Assembly: GCA_913051705.1 (NCBI GenBank)
Contig: CAJXCW010000017.1
Location: forward strand, 1 to 36,442
Length of the DNA stretch: 36,442 nt
Direction: 5' to 3'
Source of the DNA: an uncultured bacterium
GTDB taxonomy: Bacteria > JAAXHH01
Under the pieces are notes generated by a model. The model was given only the letters and a program-made list of their open reading frames with translations. It ran no database searches and had not been told where the DNA came from. A program made the position numbers and the translations under genes. Shown here one piece after another: positions 17,342 through 18,791 of this stretch (positions are counted from its first letter, which is position 1; each line of letters starts with the position of its first letter).

Positions 17342-17407
17342 AGGTCGTCTCCTGTGTTATCAGGGTTTCTATTTTATGAGCATAATGCATACTTTAATGT
17401 ACGCTTT

Positions 17408-17436
17408 ATTTTAGAAATGCCCTATTATTTTTTCAA
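17408..17436 (-). promoter_or_regulatory. Sigma70-like promoter of the TPR lipoprotein operon
   Basis: On the minus strand TTGAAA (17431-17436), 17 bp, TAAAAT (17408-17413), about 65 bp before the TPR gene start. It points away from the recA promoter. Confidence 0.55.
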
Positions 17437-17601
17437 ATCACCCACCTGAAGGGCTCGCATTGTGTATGCAGGGCATATGTCATCACCAATTCTCCATTAA
17501 AAATGCTTTACATTCCATCCCCTATCACATATTTTTTTCGAGATTCCTCAATCTATTCCGACTATGTATAACAGCCGGCTGCATCAAATCAAAAAAACGA
17601 C

Positions 17602-17630
17602 TTGCTATCTAAACAAAGGTTTAGTATATT
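17602..17630 (+). promoter_or_regulatory. recA promoter with an operator-like palindrome in its spacer
   Basis: TTGCTA (17602-17607), 17-bp spacer, TATATT (17625-17630). The spacer holds the perfect palindrome CTAAAC-AAAG-GTTTAG (17609-17624), whose AAC-N4-GTT core resembles the Gram-positive-type LexA box (GAAC-N4-GTTC). A second palindrome, ATATTGT-ACGAA-ACAATAT (17626-17644), covers the -10 and the likely start site. Confidence 0.7.
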
Positions 17631-17655
17631 GTACGAAACAATATGAATCTGGCCT

Positions 17656-17676
17656 TTTGCAATTTGTAATTTGCAA
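17656..17676. repeat. Three heptads TTTGCAA/TTTGTAA/TTTGCAA before recA
   Basis: Exact seven-base spacing. Two copies of the same heptad family, in inverse orientation, occur in the ahcY leader at 11866-11879. Confidence 0.75.
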
Positions 17677-17699
17677 TGACCCTACGAAGGAGGCAGACA

Positions 17700-18791
17700 G
17701 TGGCTGCAAACGGTAAGGTGGATGCAGAACGTGAAAAAGCACTGAGTGCTGCGATTATGCAGATAGAACGGCAATTCGGCAAAGGCTCTATCATGCGGAT
17801 GGGGGATAATCATCCCCTGATGTCTGTAGAATCTATCCCGACAGGTTCCCTGACGCTCGATCTCGCCCTGGGAATCGGCGGGGTGCCCCGCGGTCGTGTG
17901 GTTGAAATCTATGGAAATGAGTCCTCCGGTAAAACGACGCTCGCCCTGCATATTGTCGCAGAAGCCCAGAAAATGGGCGGCATAGCCGCTTTCATCGATG
18001 CGGAACATGCGATAGATGCCCGGTATACCAAGGCACTTGGTGTTGATCTGGACAGCCTTTTAATTCATCAGCCGGATACCGGTGAACAAGCGCTGGAGGT
18101 GGCGGAAACGCTGGTGCGTAGCGGTGCGGTAGACGTCATCGTGATCGATTCTGTCGCCGCGCTGGTGCCGAAAGCCGAAATTGAAGGCGATATGGGCGAT
18201 TCCCATGTGGGATTACAGGCGCGTCTTATGTCTCAAGCCCTCCGTAAATTAACCTCTGCGATCAATCGGTCACGTACCTGTATCATCTTCATCAATCAGA
18301 TTCGTCAGAAAATCGGGGTCATGTACGGCAATCCGGAAACGACGACCGGCGGGTTGGCCCTGAAATTTTACGCCTCTATTCGTATTGAGGTGCGCCGGAT
18401 CGGTTCCATAAAGGGTGACGGAGATTCTTCAGGCATCCAGGTTAAGGGGACGGTTAAAAAGAACAAAGTGGCGGCCCCGTTTCGGGAAGGCCTGTTCGAT
18501 ATTATCTATGGCGAAGGGATCTCGAAAGAAAGCGATCTGATCGAACTCGGTGTCAACAACGGTATCATCGACAAAAGCGGAACCTGGTTTTCCTATAATG
18601 GGGAGCGATTGGGGCAGGGGAGAGAAAATGTCCGTCAGTTGCTGAAAGAGCGGAAAGACCTGAGTGAAGAAATAGAACAAAAAGTCCGCGCACTCTTTAT
18701 GCCTTCAGACAAGAGCGAGGCAGAAGAGGCAAACGGCGCCGTAGAAGAACCTGTGGCAGAATTAGAAACGGCGGACAGTAAGAAGAAGTGA
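17700..18791 (+). CDS. recA: Recombinase RecA
   Basis: A 363-aa RecA: the cytosolic ATP-dependent strand-exchange protein that also triggers LexA self-cleavage. Walker A is G72NESSGKTT, Walker B lies in [12 protein letters not shown], and the family block [43 protein letters not shown] contains the L1/L2-region signatures. The C-terminal tail is acidic ([17 protein letters not shown]) as usual. The start is GTG at 17700, placed by AAGGAGG about seven bases upstream; an ATG at 17676 lies before that ribosome site and would add eight residues. The promoter at 17602-17630 contains an operator-like palindrome, consistent with SOS control. Downstream the gene faces cystathionine gamma-synthase across an inverted-repeat gap. 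Confidence 0.98.

Follow-up and report, generated by a model that had tools for sequence, protein, structure and literature searches.

A probable LexA box in the recA promoter spacer

The palindrome CTAAAC-AAAG-GTTTAG in the recA promoter P1 of an uncultured bacterium is very probably the operator of the repressor LexA. It lies in a stretch of 36,442 nucleotides (the window), and we read it as a LexA site because, in the relatives searched, the promoters of recA, lexA and uvrA all have a site of this kind in the corresponding position. A preliminary description of this DNA had reported two palindromes at the recA promoter, and both are present at the coordinates given for them (Table 1). The first, with perfect arms in a 6-4-6 arrangement, sits as described inside the 17-base spacer (17608-17624) and takes up 16 of its bases, between TTGCTA and TATATT. 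The second is a 7-5-7 palindrome, again with perfect arms, which begins at the second base of the -10 element and extends, as had been claimed, over the probable start site.

Table 1. Features of the recA promoter region, in window coordinates.
Feature	Position	Strand	Basis
Upstream recA promoter P2, TTTACA-17-TATTTT	17507..17535	+	counterpart in 16/16 genomes
P1 -35 element TTGCTA	17602..17607	+	sequence; TTG kept in 16/16 genomes
Candidate LexA operator CTAAAC-AAAG-GTTTAG (CTAAACAAAGGTTTAG)	17609..17624	.	P1 spacer; conservation across relatives and recA-free matrix
P1 -10 element TATATT	17625..17630	+	sequence; YATATT or TATAAT in relatives
Second palindrome ATATTGT-ACGAA-ACAATAT (ATATTGTACGAAACAATAT)	17626..17644	.	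over -10 and probable start
RBS AAGGAGG	17687..17693	+	sequence
recA, GTG start at 17700	17700..18791	+	PF00154 E=1.8e-132; TIGR02012 547 bits, cut-off 325

The box recurs at recA, lexA and uvrA

Conservation was followed in 16 genomes of the phylum that represent five genera: this genome (G000), G001, 12 genomes of genus g3, G014 and G015. At recA, the box is found between the -35 and -10 elements in all 16, as CTAAACATAGGTTTAG in G001, CTAAACATAAGTTTAG in G014, CTAAACATTAGTTTAG in G015 and CTA[ACT]ACANNTGTTTGG in the 12 g3 genomes; in the promoter alignment the box and the promoter elements are constant across genera while the bases downstream of the -10 element drift. The preliminary description had proposed a search for the motif at other repair promoters, and at both lexA and uvrA a related box occupies the same promoter position, in this genome as in its relatives. 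The lexA promoter of this genome reads TTGACA-C-CTAACCACATGTTATG-TACATT, a layout identical to that of recA P1, and a spacer box is present before lexA in 16/16 genomes (CTAACC[AG]NATGTTNTG in family members, CTAACCAAATGTTTGG in G014 and a diverged copy, CTATTCAGGCGTTGTG, in G015). The uvrA promoter reads TTGATTT-CTAAACAAATGTAGAG-TATAAT, with its TTG 107 bases before an open reading frame with UvrA domains, and the pattern TTG-N4-CTAAAC-N4-GTANAG is kept in position in 14/14 family genomes, namely this genome, G001 and the 12 of g3. A further, weak candidate box before lexA of this genome was dropped, its score on the LexA matrix being below zero. As a separate observation, a single open frame of about 1935 codons encodes UvrA as two complete units in most family genomes (L225, G000:C26:20032-25719).

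Since LexA is assigned to the palindrome through gene content and position, another dyad-binding regulator of DNA-repair genes could in principle own it. We consider this very improbable: the box lies within the promoter of lexA itself in 16/16 genomes, as autoregulation predicts, described LexA boxes have its AAC-N4-GTT core and its outer CT..AG, and LexA is the only candidate regulator known here.

The first palindrome is far above chance

Perfect palindromes of such sizes are common in the window, with 16 of the 6-4-6 type, five of the 7-5-7 type and 17 whose arms are 7 or longer and whose gaps are 3-8, and symmetry alone is therefore little proof. The genome (5.45 Mb, 405 contigs) contains a single exact copy of CTAAACN4GTTTAG, and the promoter-embedded pattern TTG-N4-CTAAMC-N4-GTNNDG-TA has exactly three zero-mismatch sites in it, one each before recA, lexA and uvrA; no genome site has one mismatch, and at two mismatches the counts are at background level (12+9 in all versus 32+30 for the reversed control). 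This pattern was fitted with the three sites already in view, and the independent tests are conservation in relatives and a recA-free matrix, built from lexA and uvrA sites only. When this matrix was run over the window, position 17609 ranked first with 16.4 bits, the runner-up reaching 8.9 bits, and the top maximum on 30 Markov-shuffled windows was 15.7 bits. Together, 18 distinct sites hold 21.1 bits of information, with C1, T2, A3, C6, G11, T12 and G16 invariant. The working consensus of the lineage box is CTAWAC-N4-GTTTRG. By conservation and recurrence, the first palindrome is far above chance. A fortuitous palindrome, or one shaped by the constraint of the promoter elements only, would suit the AT-rich promoter region and the 16 perfect 6-4-6 palindromes noted above, but is hardly credible when lexA and uvrA carry the same box and its position is invariant between genera in which neighbouring bases drift.

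The bare motif at two mismatches showed no excess over its reversed control in the genome scan (63 versus 220), and we dropped it as a regulon finder, most inspected sites being intragenic or before unrelated genes.

A single canonical LexA

The preliminary idea required that the genome encode LexA, and one copy of the gene was found. This single LexA (C50:15735-16343; TIGR00498 E=2.5e-68, over the family cut-off) displays LexA_DNA_bind and Peptidase_S24 domains, its closest solved relative is itself a LexA (3k2z, E=1.8e-43), and the alignment contains the self-cleavage residues, namely a VAAG site (Ala92-Gly93), Ser127 and Lys164, numbered from the sequence. With its Ala-Gly site and Ser/Lys dyad, the protein is predicted to be a canonical LexA able to cleave itself. 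The residues of its recognition helix, STRAAYDHLRAIEKKG, are identical across all five genera, in agreement with a box common to them.

The lineage box differs from the described boxes compared

The Gram-positive (Bacillus-type) LexA box has the consensus CGAACRNRYGTTCG. As noticed in the preliminary description, the recA site has the AAC-N4-GTT core in common with it, yet the full consensus is not matched, with 5 mismatches in 14 positions and flanks that read TAAAC/GTTTA here versus CGAAC/GTTCG. The box of Myxococcus xanthus, CTRHAMRYBYGTTCAG (PMC9705874), resembles the lineage box in its 16 bases, its left CT, its right G and its GTT core. The g3 uvrA sites depart from it by only 1-2 mismatches, whereas the recA site at 17609-17624 has 4 mismatches on one strand and 2 on the other, and GTTCAG in M. 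xanthus stands against GTTTRG or GTTNTG in the lineage. Furthermore, M. xanthus recA1 and uvrA are reported without LexA boxes (PMC9705874), unlike recA and uvrA of this lineage. The box of the Bacteroidetes SOS regulator, CTAA-N5-TTAG (PMC8565304), has the same CTAA and TTAG ends, but its spacing is tighter and its regulator non-canonical, while the LexA of this genome is canonical. Judged by sequence, the lineage box is nearest to that of M. xanthus, yet matches neither the M. xanthus nor the Gram-positive consensus.

Distinct LexA boxes, which differ between bacterial groups, numbered 17 in a 2021 count (PMC8565304). We identified no LexA study of this phylum-level lineage, in a literature that is not searchable by lineage name. 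While a LexA operator is a known kind of element, the lineage-specific motif appears new, and its recurrence at recA, lexA and uvrA supports the earlier suggestion that the first palindrome may define the motif of an uncultured group. What is added for this phylum-level lineage is one LexA motif, three core target genes and a repressor predicted to be autoregulated, and the motif lets the SOS regulon of lineage genomes be predicted.

In a sister genus, lexA2, an imuA-like gene, imuB and dnaE2 follow each other in a row (L322 198-6213). The promoter spacer of this LexA paralogue contains a box, as that of lexA does here, but the box is ACAGACAAATGTCTGT and the recognition helix is different, so that a single genus offers two LexA paralogues that differ in both helix and box. 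The cassette was not found in this genome.

The second palindrome and the upstream promoter P2

The preliminary description had offered both palindromes as a candidate SOS operator. The single LexA and the lexA and uvrA boxes uphold this for the first palindrome, but the second very probably lies outside the LexA operator: its right arm is not conserved in the recA promoter alignment, and G001 and G014 are without it and keep the first box intact, so that the first box is independent of it. One compound LexA operator made of both palindromes would fit their adjacency and the promoters with two LexA boxes known in Bacteroidetes (PMC8565304), but given the missing right arm in G001 and G014 and a score of -15 on the LexA matrix, versus 12 to 23 for sites, we regard it as very unlikely. 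The second palindrome was also dropped as a regulon motif, with 402 genome sites at up to three mismatches (control 256), one of them exact.

In a perfect-stem test against shuffled downstream sequence, the second palindrome alone is marginal, with p about 0.04 (0.044). Thirteen other genomes, the 12 of g3 and G015 (L005-L016, L018), have dyads of different sequence in this position, and dyads unrelated in sequence lie over the recA -10 element and start in three of the five genera. The same test gave p<=0.006 in eight g3 genomes and 0.012 in G015, with no significance in the other four g3 genomes, all g3 genomes being closely related and not independent counts for the dyad. Wobble pairs preserve the predicted RNA stem across g3, with loops of varying length, a pattern that suits a hairpin in P2 transcripts more than it does a dyad bound by protein. 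A wider reading combines the lineage's own LexA motif with a second control of recA, in which a dyad over the -10 element and start, its sequence changing from genus to genus and its place staying fixed, would act as a hairpin in P2 transcripts; we hold this to be unlikely. Rfam gave no match in 17342-17760.

A P2-like promoter, TTTAC-N-TANNTT, is present 90-102 bases before the box in 16/16 genomes and is followed by a conserved CGAGATT-like stretch, with no LexA box at P2. The natural reading is that P2 would provide basal expression and P1 the expression induced by damage. In the mechanism that we propose, a LexA dimer would bind at 17609-17624, between the -35 and -10 elements, and block RNA polymerase at P1. 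Upon DNA damage, RecA filaments would promote self-cleavage of LexA at Ala92-Gly93 by means of Ser127 and Lys164, and P1 would open. Concomitantly, lexA and uvrA, which are arranged alike, would respond together with recA, while P2, about 100 bases upstream and devoid of a box, probably supplies basal RecA.

Other candidate targets

A family B DNA polymerase gene (polB) of this genome has a weaker site, AAAAACATACGTTTAG, a short distance upstream; no polB boxes were found in relatives, and the dinB promoters of relatives displayed no convincing box. An IMS (Y-family) polymerase was not detected in this genome, while 13/13 family relatives have one or two. A two-mismatch promoter-embedded box, TTGTATGCCCAACATATGTTTTGTATAAT, stands 122 bases before a GNAT-like gene (L324 346-370, G000:C168), which is possibly a further LexA target.

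Further boxes were seen in genus g3. In its genome G013 a box precedes a probable dnaN, an identification made by eye from the sequence, and in G007 one precedes a DUF5131 gene. LexA-type boxes that overlap the -10 element also stand before a repeated g3 gene family whose N-terminus resembles MPFFSSASHP, often near contig ends (L107, L108, L109, L110, L117, L118, L119). The gene mraZ is usually the first of the cell-division cluster, and six g3 genomes carry a LexA-type box 80 bases before it (L106 2487-2504; L091, L093, L100, L102, L103), a possible link of the SOS response to division.
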